Notes under the pieces: generated by a model
What the model saw: the letters and a program-made list of their open reading frames with translations, nothing else
Database searches by the model: none
What the model was told of the DNA's origin: nothing
Source: a virus
Virus record (IMG/VR): IMGVR_UViG_3300010883_000428
Coordinates: 1 to 25,029 of that record
Reading direction: 5' to 3' (one strand)
Length of the DNA: 25,029 bases
Shown here: piece by piece, positions 4,801 to 24,141 of the stretch
Numbering within the stretch: the first letter of the stretch is position 1
How the letters are laid out: each line of letters opens with the position of its first letter
Made by a program: the position numbers and the translations under genes

Positions 4801-4808
4801 GTAAGTCA

Positions 4809-4824
4809 GTGCATACGCTTGCAC
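4809..4824 (+). promoter_or_regulatory. 16-bp palindromic site, copy 1 (GTGCATACGCTTGCAC)
   Basis: It lies between the tape measure stop (4800) and the start of the next gene (4846) and is followed by TTTTT. It has perfect GTGCA/TGCAC arms around a CG centre, shared with five other copies. Because of the T run it could also form a small hairpin terminator with a 5-bp stem. The other copies show that the element as a whole is not simply a terminator. Confidence 0.7.
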
Positions 4825-11105: not shown

Positions 11106-11112
11106 GTATAAT
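11084..11112 (+). promoter_or_regulatory. Sigma70-like promoter TTGCAA-N17-TATAAT
   Basis: TTGCAA at 11084-11089 and TATAAT at 11107-11112 are separated by 17 bases. Initiation would be near 11119. It lies at the end of the small Cys gene and would serve the non-coding patch and the HNH gene. The -10 box is shared with the left arm of the next hairpin. Confidence 0.6.
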
Positions 11113-11142
11113 AGGTTAGTTGAGAAGGCTAATCTATTTTTT
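11110..11142 (+). terminator. Intrinsic terminator whose left arm overlaps the -10 box
   Basis: AATAGGTTAG (11110-11119) pairs with CTAATCTATT (11129-11138) in a 10-bp stem with one G-U pair, a 9-base loop and a T run at 11137-11142. RNA arriving from the upstream GT genes can form it. RNA started at about 11119 from the overlapping promoter lacks the left arm and would escape. Confidence 0.65.
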
Positions 11143-11288
11143 ACCTTATTGGCATGGTAACTCCTTCCGTTATCTCTTTGTTTTTAATTGGGCTACGAGC
11201 GGTTAATAGTATCGCCATGAGGTCGCGTCCCAATCTTTTCGAGTTAAAAATCCGTGCTTCGGAGAAATACCGGAGAAGAATGAAAAAA

Positions 11289-11304
11289 GTGCACACGCTT
11301 GCAC
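11289..11304 (+). promoter_or_regulatory. 16-bp palindromic site, copy 2 (GTGCACACGCTTGCAC)
   Basis: It is identical to copy 5. It is flanked by six A before and five T after, so that AAAAAGTGCA and TGCACTTTTT make a 10-bp stem around a 6-base loop. In addition to a protein site it could act as a terminator in either direction. It lies about 170 bases downstream of the predicted start at 11119. Confidence 0.7.
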
Positions 11305-11348
11305 TTTTTCAGAAAGCGGTATTTTCACAAAGATAAAAATGCCTGTAA

Positions 11349-11375
11349 CTTCCTTTATATTTTGCATAAAGGGAG
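11349..11375 (+). other. Hairpin without T tract upstream of the HNH gene
   Basis: CTTCCTTTAT (11349-11358) pairs with ATAAAGGGAG (11366-11375): ten pairs with one G-U, loop ATTTTGC. No T run follows, so it is more likely an RNA structure in a leader than a terminator. Function is unknown. Confidence 0.45.
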
Positions 11376-11385
11376 GACCGTCACG

Positions 11386-11414
11386 TATACACATAAATTA
11401 CATATACACATAAA
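11386..11414 (+). repeat. Two direct copies of TATACACATAAA, 17-bp period
   Basis: The 12-base unit occurs at 11386-11397 and 11403-11414, followed by an AT-rich run up to the HNH start. It may be a local duplication or a binding site pair upstream of the HNH gene. Confidence 0.6.
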
Positions 11415-11431
11415 ATATATAAAAAGAGCAA

Positions 11432-12187: not shown

Positions 12188-12757
12188 ATGAGATTATTTA
12201 AGTTAGTATGCACCCGAGCAATCACTATTCAGCAACAAGCCCATTTATATGAGACCTGGAAGAAGCAGATAGAAGGTACAGATATTGAGGGGGCTAAGTT
12301 ATTAGTTATAGATCGTATGGATATTATCCCCTTAGATGATGGGCCGGATCTCGACAAGATGGCAGACGCCTTAACAATTTTAAACAATACAGGGCACGTT
12401 GATGCTGCTAATCTATTGCTACAGATCATGAGTCAATGCCAAGACCGCAGGCCCGACCTTGGTATGGTAGATGTGCCCGAGGCAGGTGCACCTATTACGC
12501 TGGACTCATTGGAGGGCGTTGAATGGGATACAGAGGATGGGAGTCTCAAACGAATAGGTGGGTTAGCTGCTGCAAGTTCTGATACAGCAACAGCCATAAC
12601 GGATATGGATGATTTAAGTGATGAAGAGTGCACACGTTTGCACCCGATTTCAAAGAGCCGTGTTTCGTTGACAGCTATTTCTCATGGGGTGGAGACAGCC
12701 ATAGATGAGATTAGAGATCGTCATAGCAGAGATAGCAGCGAAGGGAAAAAGATGTAA
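12188..12757 (+). CDS. Unknown acidic phage protein
   Basis: A 189-residue protein with a good ribosome site (GAGGAAGG ending about 12181) before ATG 12188. The first 95 residues are helical (QQAHLYETWKKQ, then ALTILNNTGHVDAANLLLQI). Residues 95-150 are acidic and low in structure, and the end is charged. I recognise no family or catalytic motif. The coding sequence contains one copy of the 16-bp palindrome at 12628-12643 (codons for ECTRLH). It may be cotranscribed with the MptE-like gene 53 bases downstream. Confidence 0.7.
   Translation: MRLFKLVCTRAITIQQQAHLYETWKKQIEGTDIEGAKLLVIDRMDIIPLDDGPDLDKMADALTILNNTGHVDAANLLLQIMSQCQDRRPDLGMVDVPEAGAPITLDSLEGVEWDTEDGSLKRIGGLAAASSDTATAITDMDDLSDEECTRLHPISKSRVSLTAISHGVETAIDEIRDRHSRDSSEGKKM
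12628..12643 (+). promoter_or_regulatory. 16-bp palindromic site, copy 3 (GTGCACACGTTTGCAC), inside a gene
   Basis: It is identical to copy 4. It lies in coding sequence and starts at a third codon position, reading E-C-T-R-L-H. Copy 5 is also inside a gene but starts at a first codon position and reads V-H-T-L-A-Q, so the DNA and not the protein is what is kept. Confidence 0.65.
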
Positions 12758-14434: not shown

Positions 14435-15159
14435 ATTCTCATTTAGCTATTGTTACTTACTGCCCTGATCCTGCGATGGAGGGCACAAACAGGTTGATGA
14501 TTTGTTTGAAGTCTTTGAAGGAAGTAAATTTTGACTTAGACAAGGTAGTAATAATAGACGACGGCTCCCCTACTGATGTGCATTTAATTTACGCTATGGG
14601 GCTAGGTGTTGAGATAATAAGGCGTCCTCATAATGGAGGAGTTTGTAGAGCCAAGAACACTGCGATACTGGCTCTTTTGGAGAGAGGAACTGAGTTCGGT
14701 TTTATTGCTGAAGACGACACTCTCTTTAAAGATTCATTTTGGCACATTCAGTATGAAGTAGCTTATCAGAACACTCTGATACCTCATTTTTCTTGGGCTT
14801 GGGATGATGACCCTGGCGGAATGAGAAAAGAAACAGTCTATAGAAATAATTATTATGTAACGAAGACCAGCCGACTTAATGGAGTGCTACTAACATTCAC
14901 ACCGGAGATGATTGAGCAGGTGGGTGGGTTTAAGATTCTTCCTGCAAAGTGGGGCCATACTCACACCAATTGGACTAATAGAATTCTGAAGGCCGGTATA
15001 ATACCTTGTTACTCTGACATACTGGATTCTAATAAGTATATTGGTATGAATAAGGGTTCTAGACATTCTGCTATTACCGGAATGGAGAAGCGGTGCATGA
15101 AAGTGCAAAATCAAGCTTATGCTAAGGCAGATGAGATTTATTGTCCTTTATTAGATTAG
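14431..15159 (+). CDS. Glycosyltransferase family 2-like protein
   Basis: A 242-residue protein with GTG start 14431 overlapping the previous stop, and AGGAAA upstream. Classic GT2 order: LAIVTYCPDPAMEGTNRL, VVIIDDGSPTD (about 38-48), RRPHNGGVCRAKNTAI (about 64-79) and the donor/metal motif FIAEDDTLF (about 91-99). The later FSWAWDDDPGG and the VGGFKILP segment resemble acceptor-side elements of GT2 enzymes. No membrane helix is present, so it is a soluble cytoplasmic enzyme. Its stop TAG shares its last base with the next 16-bp palindromic site. It forms an operon-like row with the MptE-like and preceding GT genes. Confidence 0.88.
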   Translation: MNSHLAIVTYCPDPAMEGTNRLMICLKSLKEVNFDLDKVVIIDDGSPTDVHLIYAMGLGVEIIRRPHNGGVCRAKNTAILALLERGTEFGFIAEDDTLFKDSFWHIQYEVAYQNTLIPHFSWAWDDDPGGMRKETVYRNNYYVTKTSRLNGVLLTFTPEMIEQVGGFKILPAKWGHTHTNWTNRILKAGIIPCYSDILDSNKYIGMNKGSRHSAITGMEKRCMKVQNQAYAKADEIYCPLLD

Positions 15160-15174
15160 TGCACACGTTTGCAC
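15159..15174 (+). promoter_or_regulatory. 16-bp palindromic site, copy 4 (GTGCACACGTTTGCAC)
   Basis: It begins on the last base of the GT stop codon and ends directly against GGAGAT, the ribosome site of the tail hub-like gene (ATG 15185). A protein bound here on DNA could block elongation. As RNA the short hairpin would sit next to the ribosome site. Confidence 0.7.
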
Positions 15175-15184
15175 GGAGATTATA

Positions 15185-17110
15185 ATGGTTATTGCTACAA
15201 GTGATATTCAGAGTTTTACAGTATCTACTTCTCTTCGAGGGGTATTTTCTGGAGATATAGGTGTAACCAACCAAAACAGGCAGTATACAGGAAGTTATAG
15301 ATACACTCCTGTAAGACTAAATTTAGCTTCCACTGCCACTACTACGGGTATTGGTAGCCCTGCTTGTTTCTCGGGTTCAACCACTATTCTTGGACTTGTA
15401 TCCGAGGTGGAAGATGTTCGAGACATTTCAAGTCTTGAGGCCAATTTGAAGTTTAGATCTTTCTTCGCAACCAGCTACAAAAAAGCCATCAATACTGAGT
15501 ACTTCATCTCAACTGCAAGCACCGTTCTTTCCTCTATTCTTGAGGGCTATGCAGGCATTCCTTCTGCCCTTGTAGATATCAGTTTAAGCCCCTCCAATAC
15601 TATTGTTGGAGTCGTCTCGGGGAACAATGTTCTTGAGGAATGCGTTAAAATAGCTCAAGCCAGTGAAGCCAATCTATTCGTAGATATTGGCGGAATTTTA
15701 AAGGTTAGAAATTGGAAGGACGCTTCTGACAGTATTGACGTAGTTATCCCTCCTGAGTCACTTAAGGGTGCTTCTATTTTACGAGGCACATCTGTTGGCC
15801 CTACTGTTATCGCAGTTAAAGGTCGGTACATATCTAACTTTGATGCCGGGGAGCAGTTTTATACAGTCAAGAATCCGGCTGATCAAACTAGTGCCGATCC
15901 TAATAAATCCGTTGCTAAGCAGGGAATGAAAGATGCATGTTCAAAAGTAGGGCTTGGACGCCCGCGACTGGACATGCTGATAAAAAAGCTTGCTGCCACT
16001 GCTGAAGACTTAGCTAACAGTGCTTTCCGTATTACCGAGACTACTACAGAGTGTCCTACTGTCGATTCTTCAAGTGGGGTTATTACTAATCGTCAGACTG
16101 TCGGAGGTAAATTTCATGGGATCAATATCATAGCGGATGCCCAGATGGAAGTTGTGTTATCCGATGACTGTGACGGTTACTTGGAACCCGGTGACTTTTC
16201 TTGGGAGTATGATGTAGTTGGGCAACGAAGAAAGCATACTGAAAAAGATGATCCAGGGATGCTACAGAGACCTGATTTAAGCAATCGTTTAAAGGCTTTA
16301 CGGTTAGCGGAAAATGCTGTACGTCAAGCAAGCGGAAGACCTGTTTCGCAACTAGGAACGTCGGTAGATGGCACACTCGATAATGTTCGCACAAGCGACG
16401 AGCGAGATGATCAGCGTATCGAGATGTTTGTTGTTGATGACGACCTAGTTGCGGAATTTGGTATAATTATTGAGCAGTTGGATAATCAGTACATCTCAGA
16501 TTATGAGACTCTATTTGATGTCGCAATAAGACGTTTCCAAGAATACAAAATGCAGCGAAATGTTTGGCAAGTAGAGGTAGCTTATCTTCCTTGCCTTAGT
16601 GTTAATGACGTAGTTCAATTTGTTACGCCGGATGGAAATGATACTGTAACTGGAGTGCTCAGCTCTATCAAGTTAAGTTATACTAGTGCCCCTGAAGTAC
16701 TTATGTCTTTAACAGTGGAGTCTTTTGAAGATATTGGAGCTACTGATTATACTTCAGGAAATATGCTTTTGTACCCTAACTTGGAGGCAATTAACGGAGT
16801 TGATTGGATTGGAAATAATGCAGTGCGAATGTTACGAGGGTACGTTGCACTTGATTCCGGAGCCCAGCTAAGTCAGAGTTTTGCTAACTTAGAAGTGGGA
16901 GCTGATTATACTTTTACACTAACGGCTACAGTGGACACAGCCGGTAGTTTTACAATGTCTATGGGATCGGGCTCTCAATTAGTTGGAAGTTCCGGAACCT
17001 TCTTTGTCACATTTACCGCAGGCAGTTCTACCGCTACCGCTTTGATTACAGGCGTAACCGGAGGCTGGTATATTACAAATATGATAGTAGTAAAGGAAGT
17101 TACAAAATGA
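15185..17110 (+). CDS. Tail hub / distal tail-like structural protein with C-terminal beta domain
   Basis: A 641-residue protein, ATG 15185 with GGAG at 15175-15178. The middle part (SILEGYAGIPSALVDISL, then NNVLEECVKIAQASEANLFV and GGILKVRNWKD) has the layout of phage tail hub proteins, where a collapsing-spiral domain reads out a short coordinate frame. Residues about 380-500 carry an alpha/beta part and a late QVEVAYLPCLSVNDVVQF strand set. Residues about 520-641 form a separate Gly/Ser/Thr-rich beta sandwich (VGADYTFTLTATVDTAGSF), as in carbohydrate-binding or adhesive tail domains. It is embedded between GT genes, apart from the other tail genes. The hub call is by pattern and not certain. 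Confidence 0.7.
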   Translation: MVIATSDIQSFTVSTSLRGVFSGDIGVTNQNRQYTGSYRYTPVRLNLASTATTTGIGSPACFSGSTTILGLVSEVEDVRDISSLEANLKFRSFFATSYKKAINTEYFISTASTVLSSILEGYAGIPSALVDISLSPSNTIVGVVSGNNVLEECVKIAQASEANLFVDIGGILKVRNWKDASDSIDVVIPPESLKGASILRGTSVGPTVIAVKGRYISNFDAGEQFYTVKNPADQTSADPNKSVAKQGMKDACSKVGLGRPRLDMLIKKLAATAEDLANSAFRITETTTECPTVDSSSGVITNRQTVGGKFHGINIIADAQMEVVLSDDCDGYLEPGDFSWEYDVVGQRRKHTEKDDPGMLQRPDLSNRLKALRLAENAVRQASGRPVSQLGTSVDGTLDNVRTSDERDDQRIEMFVVDDDLVAEFGIIIEQLDNQYISDYETLFDVAIRRFQEYKMQRNVWQVEVAYLPCLSVNDVVQFVTPDGNDTVTGVLSSIKLSYTSAPEVLMSLTVESFEDIGATDYTSGNMLLYPNLEAINGVDWIGNNAVRMLRGYVALDSGAQLSQSFANLEVGADYTFTLTATVDTAGSFTMSMGSGSQLVGSSGTFFVTFTAGSSTATALITGVTGGWYITNMIVVKEVTK

Positions 17111-18552
17111 TGGATTTGAATAGTTATTTAAGAGGAGCCATTGAAAGACAGATCATGGAGGATAAGTTTTTTCAGTACGTGCCTGCAAGAGATGATGCAC
17201 GCACACTCCGATTTTTACCCAGTGGAGAGCTTGAGAACGAAGACGAATTTGATAAGTGGACTCTATCTTTCCACGAGAGATTTAAGACTTTTCAAATCAA
17301 CTTATACAAAGACGGAGAAGCCTTGTTAAGTTGTTTGCTACAACCGGAGGGGATTTTAAAAGGAAGAGATCGTAAGGACGGATTCTGTTTATTGCGTCCT
17401 CCTGAGTTTTCATCTTCTCGTTGGAAGCTATTCTCACATCCGGTTAAATTTGCAGACAGCATTGTAATGGATGACCGGGAGAAGGAATTTAGGTACAAGG
17501 AACCTCTAGCTTCACAGAAAGATTGGTCTGCCCATGAATGGGATATCACTAAGAAGCTAGATCTTAGTATTCTCCCTGAGTCTCAGACGGCCATCGCTTT
17601 AGTAGGTTGTGACAGAGCCGAATACTTTGAAGAAGTAATTCAGTCCCTCTCACTTAATGAAGAAGCTCATCACCTACCTCTTTTTGTCTTCTTCGATCTA
17701 CCTCCCGATGAAGATAGAAATCTGATCGGAAAGCAAGCCGACCTTCTTTACCGTGCTTTCCCTCATGCCGTCGTTGTGCGGAGACCTGTTAACTTCGGTT
17801 GTGGGAGAAACCTCATAGATGTTAGACGGCAGCTTTTCGATAATGCGGGATACAAGAGAGTCTTCATGTTTGAAGACGATATGGTAGTCTCTTCTAACTA
17901 CATTAAAATGACGACTAAGTTGTTTGAGTGGGCCTCTCGAAAATACACAAACGTAGGGGCTGTACAAGGCTGGTCCTGGTGTTCCTTAAAAGGAGCGGAT
18001 AGAACAGCTTTACACTCTTCCGCCGAAGCCTGTTTTGACAACTGGTGGGGCTATCTCTTGTGCAAGGACGCATGGGATTCTATGAAAGAGGAGATGTATA
18101 AATATGAGAATTTATTCTTAGGTGGGTCGTATGCTGAGAGACCTCACGCCTCTATTCAGACTTGGCTTAAGTTGAAAAGTGAGAGGCCTTTGAGGGAAGT
18201 GGGGAAGAATCCTTATCGTCTATCTGAATATGAACGTATCAAAAGGTCGCAGTGGTTTAGTAATTCTGCTACAGGCCAAGATGCTGTTACCATGCGACTA
18301 TTTGATTTACACGGTTGGGTTCGGATGAGTACTTCCGTGAACAGAGGCAAGTATATTGGTAAGGATGGTATCCACATGACCTCTCAACGGTGGAAGCAGC
18401 ATGGTTATGAAGAACTTAGTTTTGAAGAAATACCCGATGATGCAACCCGATCCAAGTTTGATCTAAGAGCTAGTTTCACGGAGGGCACAAAAGAGACTAT
18501 TAAATCTGATGCTTCGGGACTTTTAAACGCCATGAAAATCCAAACTATCTAG
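17107..18552 (+). CDS. Glycosyltransferase-like protein (GT13/GNT-I-like core) with N-terminal extension
   Basis: A 481-residue protein whose ATG overlaps the tail hub stop as ATGA. Residues 1-155 form an extension of unknown fold. From about residue 160 a GT-A core follows: TAIALVGCDRAEYFEEVIQS, VVVRRPVNFGCGRNLIDVRR and VFMFEDDMVVSSNY (acidic motif at about 255). This order, with the EDD followed by a hydrophobic strand, resembles the GNT-I (GT13) type and related bacterial proteins. A GWSWCSLKG and WWGYLLCKDAW segment follows on the acceptor side. Being coupled in translation to a tail protein suggests that it may modify that protein or another virion protein. The acceptor is unknown. Confidence 0.8.
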   Translation: MMDLNSYLRGAIERQIMEDKFFQYVPARDDARTLRFLPSGELENEDEFDKWTLSFHERFKTFQINLYKDGEALLSCLLQPEGILKGRDRKDGFCLLRPPEFSSSRWKLFSHPVKFADSIVMDDREKEFRYKEPLASQKDWSAHEWDITKKLDLSILPESQTAIALVGCDRAEYFEEVIQSLSLNEEAHHLPLFVFFDLPPDEDRNLIGKQADLLYRAFPHAVVVRRPVNFGCGRNLIDVRRQLFDNAGYKRVFMFEDDMVVSSNYIKMTTKLFEWASRKYTNVGAVQGWSWCSLKGADRTALHSSAEACFDNWWGYLLCKDAWDSMKEEMYKYENLFLGGSYAERPHASIQTWLKLKSERPLREVGKNPYRLSEYERIKRSQWFSNSATGQDAVTMRLFDLHGWVRMSTSVNRGKYIGKDGIHMTSQRWKQHGYEELSFEEIPDDATRSKFDLRASFTEGTKETIKSDASGLLNAMKIQTI

Positions 18553-18563
18553 TTAGACGCCCC

Positions 18564-18592
18564 TTGCATATTTAGCCTATTTACGCTATAAT
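18564..18592 (+). promoter_or_regulatory. Sigma70-like promoter TTGCAT-N17-TATAAT for the replication module
   Basis: TTGCAT at 18564-18569 and TATAAT at 18587-18592 are separated by 17 bases. Initiation would be near 18599. It lies in the largest gap before the first replication gene (ATG 18627). It has the same spacing, the same -10 and nearly the same -35 as the promoter at 11084-11112, and the same overlap with a hairpin. Confidence 0.7.
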
Positions 18593-18626
18593 ATCTTCTA
18601 TGCCATAACGCATAGGAGATATTTTT
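18590..18626 (+). promoter_or_regulatory. 14-bp hairpin that overlaps the -10 box and buries the ribosome site
   Basis: AATATCTTCTATGC (18590-18603) pairs with GCATAGGAGATATT (18610-18623), loop CATAAC, one G-U pair, and a T run at 18622-18626. The right arm contains AGGAG (18614-18618), the ribosome site of ATG 18627. The left arm starts in the -10 box. Read-through RNA forms the full stem, which either terminates on the T run or hides the ribosome site. RNA started at about 18599 keeps only a 5-6 bp stem. Phage T4 gene e uses a comparable hairpin that late transcripts avoid. Confidence 0.7.
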
Positions 18627-19517
18627 ATGGATGAATCTTTATTTTTATTTCTTTTTTCGGAGCAAGGCAAAAATTGCTCAGCCGACGAATTCCGAGTGTA
18701 CGCTCTTCTTAGAGGGGATATCGTTCTAAACAAGACATTGCAAGTGAAGTTTTATAAGTCTAAGAATATGCTGGTTTCGGGGCTTTCAGTGCACACGCTT
18801 GCACAACACACCTCTCTAAATGAATTGGCCGTGAAAAGATGCTTGGATTCTTTATGCCGAAAAGAGTGGATTCAGAGTATCTCTTTTTCATCAGACTCCG
18901 ATGATCGAGGCTACCATTTGGGATCAATCGAGGATTTTGAAGCAAAGTGGTTTGTGATGACTTTAAAAGAGCCTGCAAAGAAAGTAGGGGCTCGTGCTAG
19001 TATCCTGAAGTTGGTCGCGGCAAAGAAGGAAAGACGAGAATCTTTAGCTCGAACTAGAAGTAAGCTGTCTGGGGAAGCCAAGAGAGCTTTAGCTAAGGCT
19101 CTTGTTTCCCCAGTTATGTCAGACGAGAAAGCTTCCGTCACTTTGTTCAAAGTCTTTATACAGAGTTATGGCAAGACTATGGGGCATTCATTTCCCATAC
19201 CCTCTTCCACAGTTGAGCAGAATAAATTCATGCGGAAGAACTTCGCTCTTTTAAATAGATACCTAGAGAGGTGTAATCACGATTTGGATTATGCTCTCGA
19301 TCTTATAAAGTTTGTTTTTGATGATTGGGACAAGATTAAAGATTATCTTTCCTGGGAGGGCAATCCTTCGGTAGGAATGTTTGGAACTGTGAAGCTAGTA
19401 AAATTATTTAGAACCTGGAAGAAATTTGGAATACCTACTAAGAGTGATCCAAAAGGAGTAGCCAAGAGATATGACGCATCCCTTTCCGAAAAAGACCCCG
19501 ACAAAGGCTTCATTTAA
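18627..19517 (+). CDS. Putative replication initiator with N-terminal winged helix
   Basis: This 296-residue protein is the first gene of the replication module, directly before a DnaC-like loader and a DnaB-like helicase. This is the place of lambda O or DnaD-like initiators in many phages. Residues about 15-100 (SADEFRVYALLRGDIV, then LSVHTLAQHTSLNELAVKRCLDSLCRKEWI and a beta wing) form a winged-helix DNA-binding domain. Residues about 120-165 are a basic helical linker, and about 170-270 a helical domain (NKFMRKNFALLNRYLERC). ATG 18627 follows AGGAG by 8 bases, and that site lies in the hairpin arm. It contains one 16-bp palindrome copy. Its last 47 bases overlap the next gene. Assignment to a named family is not certain. 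Confidence 0.7.
   Translation: MDESLFLFLFSEQGKNCSADEFRVYALLRGDIVLNKTLQVKFYKSKNMLVSGLSVHTLAQHTSLNELAVKRCLDSLCRKEWIQSISFSSDSDDRGYHLGSIEDFEAKWFVMTLKEPAKKVGARASILKLVAAKKERRESLARTRSKLSGEAKRALAKALVSPVMSDEKASVTLFKVFIQSYGKTMGHSFPIPSSTVEQNKFMRKNFALLNRYLERCNHDLDYALDLIKFVFDDWDKIKDYLSWEGNPSVGMFGTVKLVKLFRTWKKFGIPTKSDPKGVAKRYDASLSEKDPDKGFI
18789..18804 (+). promoter_or_regulatory. 16-bp palindromic site, copy 5 (GTGCACACGCTTGCAC), inside a gene
   Basis: It is identical to copy 2. It lies within the winged-helix gene about 160 bases after the start codon and about 190 bases after the predicted transcription start, in a codon register different from copy 3. The site could act as a roadblock for transcription entering the replication genes. 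Confidence 0.65.
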
Positions 19518-20076
19518 AGCTAAGGCTCTATTTGATTATGTAGGTCTTCCGGAGAAACATAGAAAGTGCCGGTTGAATAGTATCCCTCGAAAATGTCCTC
19601 ATCGACAAGACGTAGTAAAGTATGTCAATAATATTGTAGGGGAGATCGAGAAAGGTAGAGGACTTTTGTTGCATGGAGAGTATGGCACCGGGAAGTCTGG
19701 CTCGGCTGCAATTTGTTTGAAGGCAGCGTTGAGTCATGGGATGTTCGGGTATTGGTTGAATGCAAAACGATTACCTGATTATATCATAAACAAAGTTAGA
19801 TTCAATGAAGAAGAGACCATCTATGAGAGATGCCTAACGGTCCCTCTTTTAGTTATAGATGAATTTCAATTAAGAAAGACGATTGCTTTTACGGAGACTA
19901 GTGTAGAGGATTTAATTCGTCTTAGAGTTGATGCCTCCTTAGCCACCGTCATAACAACTAACACTTCTTTACGAGTTCTGAAAGACGATTATCCTGCACT
20001 TTATTCGATCTTGACAGAAGCCGTACTCCCTTTGAAAATTCAGGGACATAATTTTAGATTGAAGGGTTCAGAATGA
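19471..20076 (+). CDS. DnaC-like AAA+ helicase loader
   Basis: A 201-residue P-loop ATPase, the size and layout of phage helicase loaders of the DnaC/IstB group. Walker A is GEYGTGKS (69-76) and Walker B LLVIDEF (126-132) with D130 and E131. A later TTN segment (VITTNTSLRVL) fits the sensor 1 region of this group. The N-terminal 45 residues carry a Cys/His cluster (C33, C42, H44) that might bind zinc. It would open the DnaB-type ring and place it on DNA. ATG 19471 overlaps the previous gene by 47 bases and the stop overlaps the helicase start as ATGA, so the three are coupled. Confidence 0.9.
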   Translation: MTHPFPKKTPTKASFKAKALFDYVGLPEKHRKCRLNSIPRKCPHRQDVVKYVNNIVGEIEKGRGLLLHGEYGTGKSGSAAICLKAALSHGMFGYWLNAKRLPDYIINKVRFNEEETIYERCLTVPLLVIDEFQLRKTIAFTETSVEDLIRLRVDASLATVITTNTSLRVLKDDYPALYSILTEAVLPLKIQGHNFRLKGSE

Positions 20077-21323
20077 AGCTCGGCAAGATGCTTGTAGTAG
20101 CCTTATTAAGAGAGCAAAGTTTTGAAGAACTTAATAAAGCCCACATAAAAGAAGAGGACTTTTTCGCTGAGGGAGAGAAGGCGTACAAATGGGTTAAAGA
20201 GTATTTCGATGAAACTTCCGAATGGCCTTCCATAACTCTTGTAGAAGACTCAACAGGTATAGCTTTACCAACTGATCCCGTCCCGTTGAAATATGCGGTG
20301 GATCAGGTACGTAAGCGGGCTCTGTCTAAACGGCTTCACAAAGAGTTAAGTCGAAGTGCCTCCTTATTAGAGGCTCGTGATCCGGACGCAGCTTTGCTTC
20401 ACGTTAAAGAGATTTCTTCTGAGGAGTCTTCTTATGTGGCAACAGAGATTACAGATTATTCTAAACGTCGAGAAACCCGAGTTGAAATCTATGAGGAGTT
20501 AAAAGAGGCGGGAGGCTACCGGGGATTGAGTACTCCTTGGGAGTGTTTAAACAAACAAATTCAAGGCTGGGTGAACGGTAGTTTAAACGTATTGATAGGC
20601 CCCACCAATGCTGGAAAATCCTGGTACTCTTGTATAATTGCTAATCATGGTCAGGCTCAAGACGCACTGATTTTACTGGTTACTATGGAGATGGACGCAT
20701 ACCGAATTGAACGTAGGTTGGACGCAGTTAAATACAAATTACCTTTCATTGATTTACGAGACGGTTCCATAGATGCTCTGAGTTTAGAGACTTGGAAAAA
20801 GAAAGCTAAAGAAGAGGTCACTGTTGGGAACGTCTTAATTGCAGATAAGAAATTAGTTCAAACTGTATCAGATGTTGCTGCTTTATGCCGAAGCCATAAA
20901 CCTGATATGGTGGTTGTAGATGGGGGCTACCGTTTCAAGGGATCGGGTAAAAGTAATTGGGAACAAACTGTAGCCATAGTCAATGATTTACAATTGGCCG
21001 CTGAAGACTCGGGAGTTCCTTGGATTGTTACTACTCAGTATGGGGATTCCTCTGAGACCGGCAAGCCAGGAAAGAGTGAAAAGGGACTTCGAGCTTGGGG
21101 TGTAAGGTATGGTAAGGAGTGGGTTATTAATCCTGATGTAGCCATTGGAATTTATCAGAACGATGATCTTAGGATGATCAATCAATCACAGTTACAGATA
21201 TTCAAAATTCGTGAAGGGGCGGGAGCAGCACGATCAGACTTTCTCATTAAATGGGATATGGAGAATATGAATTTCATGGAAGTGTCAGAAGAAGATTTAG
21301 ACCGAATTGAAGTAGAATATTAG
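20073..21323 (+). CDS. DnaB-like replicative DNA helicase (RecA fold)
   Basis: A 416-residue protein. Residues 1-115 resemble the shortened N-terminal helical domain of DnaB. The RecA-type core begins near 150 with GLSTPWECLNKQIQGW, then Walker A GPTNAGKS (176-183), LLVTMEMD (201-208, catalytic Glu region) and Walker B MVVVDGG (279-285). The TTQYGDS segment (about 318-324) corresponds to motif H3, and the later QIFKIREGA to the H4 region. It unwinds DNA at the fork using ATP, loaded by the product of the preceding gene. It is shorter than bacterial DnaB (about 470), as is common in phages. Start ATG overlaps the loader stop. Confidence 0.9.
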   Translation: MKLGKMLVVALLREQSFEELNKAHIKEEDFFAEGEKAYKWVKEYFDETSEWPSITLVEDSTGIALPTDPVPLKYAVDQVRKRALSKRLHKELSRSASLLEARDPDAALLHVKEISSEESSYVATEITDYSKRRETRVEIYEELKEAGGYRGLSTPWECLNKQIQGWVNGSLNVLIGPTNAGKSWYSCIIANHGQAQDALILLVTMEMDAYRIERRLDAVKYKLPFIDLRDGSIDALSLETWKKKAKEEVTVGNVLIADKKLVQTVSDVAALCRSHKPDMVVVDGGYRFKGSGKSNWEQTVAIVNDLQLAAEDSGVPWIVTTQYGDSSETGKPGKSEKGLRAWGVRYGKEWVINPDVAIGIYQNDDLRMINQSQLQIFKIREGAGAARSDFLIKWDMENMNFMEVSEEDLDRIEVEY

Positions 21324-22384: not shown

Positions 22385-23373
22385 ATAGACGAGAGCTTCT
22401 CGAAATTCTGAAGATTCTAAAAGTTCCTTTGGAGGAGTGTAAGTGGCTATCTGAGGTACAGGTACAAATACCCTGTCCTTTGGCTCCCTGGTTCCATGAG
22501 AGCAAGCACGACTTCAATCCTTCAATGGGAATTAGGTTAGGGGACGCTAAAGCTTGGACAGTGTTTAGATGTTTTACTTGTGATGAAAGTGGGAAGCTTG
22601 CTCACTTAGTTGTCTCTTTGGCATCTCTGGATCACAGAGAGGATTTAAACGATCTAATAGAAAGTTTGTTTGAGTCGGACGCTCCGAGTTTAGCGGCTAG
22701 GTTTAAATCCTTAGATGAAGAGACTTCAAAATGGTTTTATGATATCGAAGATAAGTCAAAGGATACTTCTTATTCCTTGGCACGTTTTGAAGATTTACAT
22801 CTTAGCCGGAGGGCTTGCGAGTATTTGAAGGGACGAGGAATATCAGACGACATCGCAACACAGTTTGATTTAAGGCATGACCCTCATTTGAATCGAGTAG
22901 TATTTCCGGTTAGGTCTGAAAAGGGAGAGTTGCAGGGAGCAGTGGGAAGAACATTGTTAAATGAGGTTCCTCCTTATTATAACTATTTCTCTTTCCCCGC
23001 CTCGGAGACTTTGGGAGGTGCTGATCATATTGTAGGGAACCCTCGGATCTTATTAGTTGAAGGTTATTTTGATCTATTAAATTGTTGGCAGTGGGCACAA
23101 GAAATAGAGACAGATGTAGTTTGTTGTTGGAAGGCGACTCTATCAAAAAAACAAATTGAATTCTTAGCTTCTAAGGATGCAACTATCTATGTAGGATTTG
23201 ATCCAGGGAAGGCCGGGAGAACTGGTTGGAATAAAGCTTTGAAAGAACTTGAACCTTATACTACAAAATTGCAGAAAGTCGAAGTTCCCGAAGATTCCGA
23301 TATAGGCGAATTGACAAAAGCTACTTTTTTGGATATAATGGAGCAGGCTCAAAGAAGAGCACGAATTTTTTAA
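22381..23373 (+). CDS. DnaG-like primase (CHC2 zinc finger and TOPRIM)
   Basis: A 330-residue protein that makes RNA primers for the fork. GTG start 22381 overlaps the preceding stop. The N-terminal zinc-binding domain has C32, H39 or H43, and C64/C67 (FRCFTCDE) with the PSMGI segment typical of CHC2 fingers. Residues about 135-215 correspond to the RNA polymerase N-domain (YLKGRGISDDIATQF and VVFPVRSEKGELQGAVGRT). The TOPRIM domain has ILLVEGYFDLL (E227, D231) and VGFDPGKAGR (D274), with the usual DxD reduced to DPG, as in some phage primases. It lacks the DnaB-binding C-terminal domain of bacterial DnaG. A promoter for the next gene lies in its 3' end. Confidence 0.9.
   Translation: MNRRELLEILKILKVPLEECKWLSEVQVQIPCPLAPWFHESKHDFNPSMGIRLGDAKAWTVFRCFTCDESGKLAHLVVSLASLDHREDLNDLIESLFESDAPSLAARFKSLDEETSKWFYDIEDKSKDTSYSLARFEDLHLSRRACEYLKGRGISDDIATQFDLRHDPHLNRVVFPVRSEKGELQGAVGRTLLNEVPPYYNYFSFPASETLGGADHIVGNPRILLVEGYFDLLNCWQWAQEIETDVVCCWKATLSKKQIEFLASKDATIYVGFDPGKAGRTGWNKALKELEPYTTKLQKVEVPEDSDIGELTKATFLDIMEQAQRRARIF
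23311..23339 (+). promoter_or_regulatory. Perfect consensus sigma70 promoter TTGACA-N17-TATAAT
   Basis: TTGACA at 23311-23316 and TATAAT at 23334-23339 have a 17-base spacer, all inside the end of the primase gene. Initiation would be near 23346. The transcript would give a separate supply of the ssDNA-binding protein and downstream genes. A 16-bp palindrome lies about 30 bases after the predicted start. Confidence 0.75.
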
Positions 23374-23376
23374 TTA

Positions 23377-23392
23377 GTGCAAGCGTTTGCAC
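23377..23392 (+). promoter_or_regulatory. 16-bp palindromic site, copy 6 (GTGCAAGCGTTTGCAC)
   Basis: It lies between the primase stop (23373) and ATG 23434. Symmetry extends outward to TAGTGCAAGC/GTTTGCACTA (23375-23394) with one mismatched pair. Read on the other strand it is GTGCAAACGCTTGCAC, one base from copies 2 and 5, so this copy probably sits in the reverse orientation. It begins about 31 bases after the likely start of the perfect promoter, a good place for a roadblock repressor. Confidence 0.75.
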
Positions 23393-23433: not shown

Positions 23434-24141
23434 ATGGGTGAAATACCTAGTTGGGTTGATGGAGCAGGCTTTGATGCAGACATGGAGAGCGAGAAGGTTC
23501 TCCGAGCAAATGATCGCTTCTGGCTTAAGCAAGGGAGTACCAGAAAGATCATCTTCTTGACAGAGGACCCTGTTATTCTTTTTGAGCATCAAGTGTATAT
23601 TCCAGGTGGGGGCTATCATTATGCGACTTGCCTCCGTCCTCTGGATATCCCTTGTGCCCTCTGCGACTACGCAGATGATAATTCCGGTCAAGCCAAGCGA
23701 TCCCGAGTAGCTGTCTTTTCTATCATAGACACTACCACTTACGTTGATAAAGCCGAGAAAGAGCATTCTAATATTAAAAAGCTCTTGATGGCAAAGAAAG
23801 GGACTTTTGAGCTTCTTAAGAGGCGGCAACTGAAAATACGAGAGGCGGGGCATCCTGGCTTACAGTATGCTTTAGTTGAAGCTTATCGTACTAATAAGGA
23901 CAAGTCCCCGGCTGTAGGAGACGAGTTTGAATACATCAAGCACGTTGATCCTACCACCTTGGAGGATACCGAAGAGTTTGATTGGCAGACCCTTTTGGCC
24001 CCCGACCAAGATAAGACTCGTAATGTCTTACGAAAATTAACCGGAGGAAGCTCAGCTCCTCGTGAGGACTTCCCTGATAGTTGGAGCGACAAACCTTCGG
24101 ACGCTCCCTCTGAAGGAACGGACACCTCGGTTAAATACTAA
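23434..24141 (+). CDS. Putative phage single-stranded DNA-binding protein
   Basis: A 235-residue protein, ATG 23434 with GAGGAA at 23420-23425. Residues 25-55 (RFWLKQGSTRKIIFLTEDPV) look like the first strands of an OB-type fold. H52/H62, C66 and CALC (C74, C77) could form a zinc site as in T4 gp32-like proteins. Residues 185-235 are acidic and disordered (EDFPDSWSDKPSDAP), as in the C-terminal tails by which SSBs contact other fork proteins. It lies between primase and RNase H/DNA polymerase and has its own strong promoter, fitting a protein needed in large amounts. Family identity is inferred from pattern and place. Confidence 0.72.
   Translation: MGEIPSWVDGAGFDADMESEKVLRANDRFWLKQGSTRKIIFLTEDPVILFEHQVYIPGGGYHYATCLRPLDIPCALCDYADDNSGQAKRSRVAVFSIIDTTTYVDKAEKEHSNIKKLLMAKKGTFELLKRRQLKIREAGHPGLQYALVEAYRTNKDKSPAVGDEFEYIKHVDPTTLEDTEEFDWQTLLAPDQDKTRNVLRKLTGGSSAPREDFPDSWSDKPSDAPSEGTDTSVKY

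Follow-up and report, generated by a model that had tools for sequence, protein, structure and literature searches.

We present computational evidence that rep, a replication-initiator-like gene of an uncultured phage, can probably be read only from RNA beginning at a promoter nested in its own leader, because that leader folds over the Shine-Dalgarno (SD) sequence and because related phages handle the same problem in a comparable or simpler way. The leader would make Rep translation depend on where the RNA begins. Read-through RNA from the upstream tail and glycosyltransferase genes would carry both arms of a 14-bp hairpin, hiding the SD and yielding little or no Rep. RNA from the nested, sigma70-type promoter (start at about 18599 to 18601) would lack most of the left arm, keep a 5' stem of 3 to 5 bp, and be translated. 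With the SD free just in locally started RNA, Rep synthesis would thus depend on its own promoter being active, despite the one-strand arrangement of the genes. We hold this reading, of start-dependent translation through a promoter nested in an SD-hiding hairpin, with moderate confidence. Its purpose might be to keep replication proteins from being made off structural-gene RNA.

The window, by which we mean the whole stretch of DNA analyzed, is a virus record of 25,029 bases with 43% G+C, and one strand carries every gene. A tape measure gene is followed by tail genes with several glycosyltransferase-like genes among them, then by a tail-tip-like gene and a further glycosyltransferase-like gene. 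After the rep start at 18627 come a DnaC-like loader, a DnaB-like helicase, a primase, a gene without assigned function, and an RNase H-like gene. The genes nearest the junction are:

15185-17110: tail-tip-like gene ("tail tip" reflects its position and sequence; no family match)
17107-18552, + strand: glycosyltransferase-like gene 5' of rep, its stop 37 nt ahead of the hairpin
18627-19517, + strand: rep, replication-initiator-like protein, first gene of the rep-dnaC-dnaB-primase block; no family match found, orthologues at about 30% in relatives L078/L082 and L081
19471-20076, + strand: DnaC-like helicase loader
20073-21323, + strand: DnaB-like replicative helicase

We named the gene rep because it comes first in a rep-dnaC-dnaB block whose order is conserved, and it is this position that points to an initiator role. 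A structure prediction for Rep made without an alignment was meaningless (pLDDT 36).

Several other features of the window were observed. Between 8020 and 18552, the tail genes are interspersed with at least four glycosyltransferase-like genes. Just 5' of the tape measure gene, an open reading frame at 180 to 599 overlaps a frame, in the -1 register, that is open from before 557 to 883; together (180 to 883) they probably encode two tail assembly chaperones linked by a frameshift. An inverted repeat of 12 bp is located at 622-633/658-669. No clear gene occupies the roughly 325 bases from 11106 to 11431, which hold three hairpins (11110-11138, 11284-11309, and 11349-11375) and a 17-nt tandem repeat (11383-11416).

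The leader of rep contains the following elements:

18564-18569, + strand: -35-like hexamer TTGCAT, with three of six matches; weak by itself
18587-18592, + strand: -10 box TATAAT, 17-nt spacer to the -35; predicted start 18599-18601; place and spacing as in the 11/12 promoters of relatives L081, L082, and the L087 group
18590-18603, + strand: hairpin left arm AATATCTTCTATGC, whose 5' half would be missing from locally started RNA
18600-18608, + strand: ATG CCA TAA minigene at the predicted RNA 5' end, its ATG 7 nt past the -10 box
Between the arms 18590-18603 and 18610-18623: hairpin loop CATAAC, 6 nt
18610-18623, + strand: hairpin right arm GCATAGGAGATATT, which contains the SD
18614-18618, + strand: SD sequence AGGAG of ATG 18627

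The hairpin has the anatomy given in the preliminary description of this DNA: 14 bp, a left arm that starts in the -10 box (at base 4 of TATAAT), and a right arm that contains the AGGAG of ATG 18627. Its 14 pairs (18590 to 18623) include a single G.U, T18597-G18616. No other stem in the window with a loop of 3 to 10 nt exceeds 11 pairs. Dinucleotide shuffles of the whole window contain on average 0.1 stems of 12 or more pairs with no more than one G.U, and 1 of 3000 local shuffles contains such a stem. The hairpin alone folds at -16.9 kcal/mol, and the 121-nt region around it has a fold z of -2.55, equalled by none of 200 shuffles. A search of Rfam 15 at the gathering score found no match in the window.

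The nested promoter that had been proposed is borne out in part. The TATAAT box is in place, and a start at 18599 to 18601 would be expected from its position, but TTGCAT-17-TATAAT scores only 9/12, and when the 70 nt upstream are shuffled, 437 of 3000 sequences do as well. Since the promoter is weak taken alone, its support comes from relatives.

Computed SD accessibility depends on where the RNA starts. With the whole left arm present, as in read-through RNA, opening the SD costs 11.4 to 13.8 kcal/mol. The cost is about 9.7 kcal/mol for a start at 18594 and about 6 kcal/mol for starts at 18596 to 18598 (a residual stem of 6 to 7 bp being left by starts at 18597 and 18598); for the predicted starts, 18599 to 18601, it is about 3.5 to 4.4 kcal/mol. 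Among 21 window genes placed in a read-through context, rep has the highest cost (11.9 kcal/mol; the next is 5.3). The net energy of SD pairing with the anti-SD of the 16S tail is +3.9 kcal/mol for rep in read-through RNA versus about -3 in local RNA. When just the bases from the -10 box to the SD are shuffled, the observed cost is attained in 1 of 2000 cases. The calculations thus agree with two earlier proposals, that read-through RNA hides the SD (a computed cost of about 12 kcal/mol, an outlier among the 21 genes) and that local RNA keeps a short stem, here 3 to 5 bp, and leaves the SD free. The upstream stop at 18552 would be too distant for ribosomes to melt the hairpin.

Single-protein searches with Rep, DnaB, primase, and DnaC as queries found no relatives, nor did a DNA similarity search against known phages; the sole match in a DNA pattern search with the hairpin arms was in the interior of a gene, by chance. 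Relatives were reached via a glycosyltransferase, which led to the L003 contig (102 kb, also with the dispersed palindrome described below), then via the DnaB of that contig (47% identical to the window DnaB), and finally with a two-sequence DnaB alignment, which retrieved twelve contigs at 40 to 49%. The order tail tip-rep-dnaC-dnaB is kept wherever the contigs reach, and in none of the relatives seen is tail tip separated from rep by a glycosyltransferase gene, as it is in the window. L078 and L082 are the same contig; its Rep can be aligned with that of the window starting at residues M1 and D2, and therefore the start codons are comparable.

The hairpin layout is shared by one relative only, L081, whose Rep is about 30% identical. 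Its promoter, TTGATA-17-TATAAT (11/12, 28 nt to the ATG), is equalled by 5 of 3000 shuffles. The hairpin differs from that of the window: it has 8 bp, with arms GACTTCTC (2192-2199) and GGGAGGTC (2207-2214). The left arm sits between the -10 box and the expected start, and the SD, GGGAGG, lies inside the right arm. Opening this SD costs 5.5 to 9.3 kcal/mol with the full left arm versus 1.5 to 2.1 for most starts from 2197 on, and the observed cost is attained by 1 of 2000 shuffles of the bases from -10 to SD, for a hairpin noticed before testing among about six independent junctions. In both phages, the SD would be hidden in upstream RNA, and by the promoter geometry local RNA would lack the 5' strand of the helix. 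Net SD binding in L081 is -6.0 in read-through RNA versus about -10 in local RNA. The hidden SD is very strong and its binding in read-through RNA is still favorable, so this switch would be leaky and silencing partial.

TATAATA, ATAGG, and ATTTATGGATG allow the two leaders to be aligned, and the hairpins may therefore share an origin. The position of the arms relative to the -10 box differs by about 3 nt, and a free alignment puts the arms in different registers. With a hairpin that has slid in this way, and two sequences, column-by-column covariation is ambiguous. A check of arm covariation in this one relative found the layout kept, the helix different, and the register slid; our claim is therefore of a common layout with changed sequence, without column-by-column covariation.

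Could such a hairpin be a chance product of an A+T-rich gap? The gap is a single one, of 74 nt, and its choice in the preliminary description was post hoc. The tests given above (1 of 3000 local shuffles, 1 of 2000 for the SD, and 1 of 2000 again in a second phage) make this explanation barely plausible.

The inverted repeat might instead be a DNA operator, with a repressor or the initiator itself bound to the dyad, across the -10 box and start site, and so blocking the promoter. Plasmid initiators often repress themselves at such dyad sites, and here the dyad overlaps -10 and +1 with its arm centers 20 bp, or two helical turns, apart. We nevertheless regard an operator as unlikely. Copies of the arms in the window are at chance level (22 loose matches versus 15 expected), and none but the two arms themselves has fewer than two mismatches. 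All asymmetries are G.U pairs (1 of 14 in the window, 2 of 8 in L081), which keep RNA pairing and break DNA symmetry. In both phages an arm falls on the SD, and the arms of L081 are unlike those of the window and less symmetric as DNA. Finally, the obvious protein site in these genomes is a different, dispersed palindrome.

That near-palindrome, AGTGCAYACGYTTGCAC(T), is unrelated to the hairpin. The window holds six copies in the same orientation, against 0.04 matches expected:

4808-4824, 11288-11304, 12627-12643, 15158-15174, 18788-18804, and 23376-23392: palindrome copies, four of them in gene gaps

In the relative G001 (102 kb, the contig of L003, L078, and L079), TGCAAACGTTTGCA or a close variant occurs 48 times, about once per 2 kb, and a control pattern once. 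The copy within rep is at offset 163 in both the window phage and G001. A perfect consensus promoter, TTGACA-17-TATAAT, lies at the 3' end of the primase gene (23311-23339), with a copy 36 nt downstream and the next gene at 23434. We take the form of the palindrome to resemble that of LacI/PurR-type operators; a search for a LacI-type protein as a candidate binder found none above the cut-off. The palindrome also recalls mycobacteriophage stoperators. Further virus contigs, G002 (41,961 bp; L021, L028, L029, L051, and L060) and G003 to G006, carry 4 to 11 copies, and they have either no related DnaB or a distant one. The palindrome is therefore spread more widely than this phage group.

It had also been proposed that the full hairpin might terminate read-through RNA. 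On this account it would be an intrinsic terminator of the upstream tail and glycosyltransferase RNA, with the promoter of the next operon packed inside. The hairpin is stable, is the sole one of such strength between the upstream stop and the ATG, and is followed by TTT; the "five T" of the preliminary description comprise these three and two that belong to the stem. Several observations argue against termination and make it quite unlikely. The outer stem pairs are A-U, the hairpin is absent from the terminator-scan list, and the stem of L081 is followed by just ATTT, with no T-run. The d-scores are -15.6 or -25.6 for the window and -47.5 for L081. Start-dependent translation is thus supported computationally, and termination is without such support. 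An operator or a terminator function might be an added role.

Not all members of the group have the hairpin. In L082, a promoter TTGACC-17-TATAAT (11/12; equalled by 4 of 3000 shuffles) has its -10 box ending 6 nt before the ATG. In the L087 group (L087, L088, L090, and L091), the junction reads TTGACA-18-TATACT with 7 nt to the ATG, and the 11/12 promoters of L088 and L091 are each equalled by 0 of 3000 shuffles. With the -10 box 6 to 7 nt before the ATG, where about 6 to 8 nt would be expected of a leaderless mRNA, RNA would start at or next to the start codon, and leaderless RNA is therefore predicted. In the three of these tested, a useful SD is absent upstream (L082 and L087) or there is a negligible, far one (L088), so that read-through RNA of this type is predicted to lack a useful SD.

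No promoter comparable to these is present within 70 nt in the lineages L083/L084, L085, and L086. The SDs of L085 and L086 are open (net -4.8), and the start codon of L083 overlaps the upstream stop (TAATG), which suggests translational coupling. Two lineages are thus of predicted leaderless type and three are without a close promoter, so the group can do without the design. In read-through RNA, the SD is predicted to be hidden or is missing in each of the four lineages that have a close promoter, and the two without such a promoter but with an SD have it open, a pattern in small numbers and seen after the fact. It might be that the initiator is insulated from read-through RNA because its translation depends on the first base of the RNA, and that two interchangeable solutions have evolved at one junction: an SD-hiding nested hairpin, or a leaderless promoter without an SD. 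On that view, the choice of start site would be where phage replication is controlled. We offer this tentatively, at somewhat less than an even chance. The same logic, or leaderless RNA, in the phage group would show a general answer to one-strand read-through.

The leaderless junctions also bear on the ATG CCA TAA at 18600 to 18608, whose ATG lies as far from the -10 box (7 nt) as the leaderless ATG of the L087 group (6 nt in L082). It is possibly a leaderless-start relic, a minigene, or chance. The hairpin might act mainly after local initiation, with the 5' stem or the minigene stabilizing the RNA or guiding ribosomes to ATG 18627, and SD hiding in read-through RNA would be incidental. A 5' stem of 4 to 5 bp does remain in local RNA, and ATG 18600 is at leaderless distance from the -10 box, as in relatives. 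We consider such a role very unlikely, because a perfect 14-bp arm extending into the -10 box is more than a short 5' stem requires, and because L081 has no such 5' stem or minigene if its RNA starts at 2198 to 2200.

Gene e of phage T4 is the textbook example of silencing on the wrong RNA. There the SD is masked in the long RNA made early, and a short RNA that is translated well comes from late promoters situated in the DNA of the 5' strand, with an effect of 100-fold; the soc, 49, and I-TevI leaders of T4 are listed alongside it in section 29 of PMC3014915. Start-dependent translation of rep would work in the same way, the long RNA folding over the SD and the RNA of the nested promoter, without the 5' strand, being freed. 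In T4, a late gene is silenced on early RNA and the late promoters are TATAAATA; in the window, it would be a replication gene on structural-gene RNA, with host-type -35 and -10 elements. The order would be reversed relative to gene e if the timing is as the preliminary description supposed. Gene e is established by experiment, and the window arrangement is predicted by computation. A homologue of the gene e leader is ruled out: the window has TATAAT preceded at 17 nt by a -35-like hexamer, not TATAAATA, and an initiator-like gene downstream, not gene e. The gene e logic invoked earlier thus holds as to mechanism but not as to descent, promoter type and gene being different. The leaders of mobE of Aeromonas phage Aeh1 and segB of T4, cited in PMC3014915, are reported to form an RNA helix over the ribosome site. 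There, too, the helix belongs to phage genes, but these are homing endonuclease genes, not replication genes.

The transposase leaders of IS10, IS200, and IS50 follow a similar principle: a fold hides the ribosome site on RNA from outside, and RNA from the element's own promoter escapes. Those are mobile elements guarding against the promoters of their neighbors, and their sequences are unrelated to the window. The other solution also has a counterpart, the leaderless phage mRNA of lambda cI from PRM. L082 and the L087 group resemble it in having the -10 box 6 to 7 nt before the ATG and no SD, whereas in the window phage and L081 an SD-containing leader precedes the gene.
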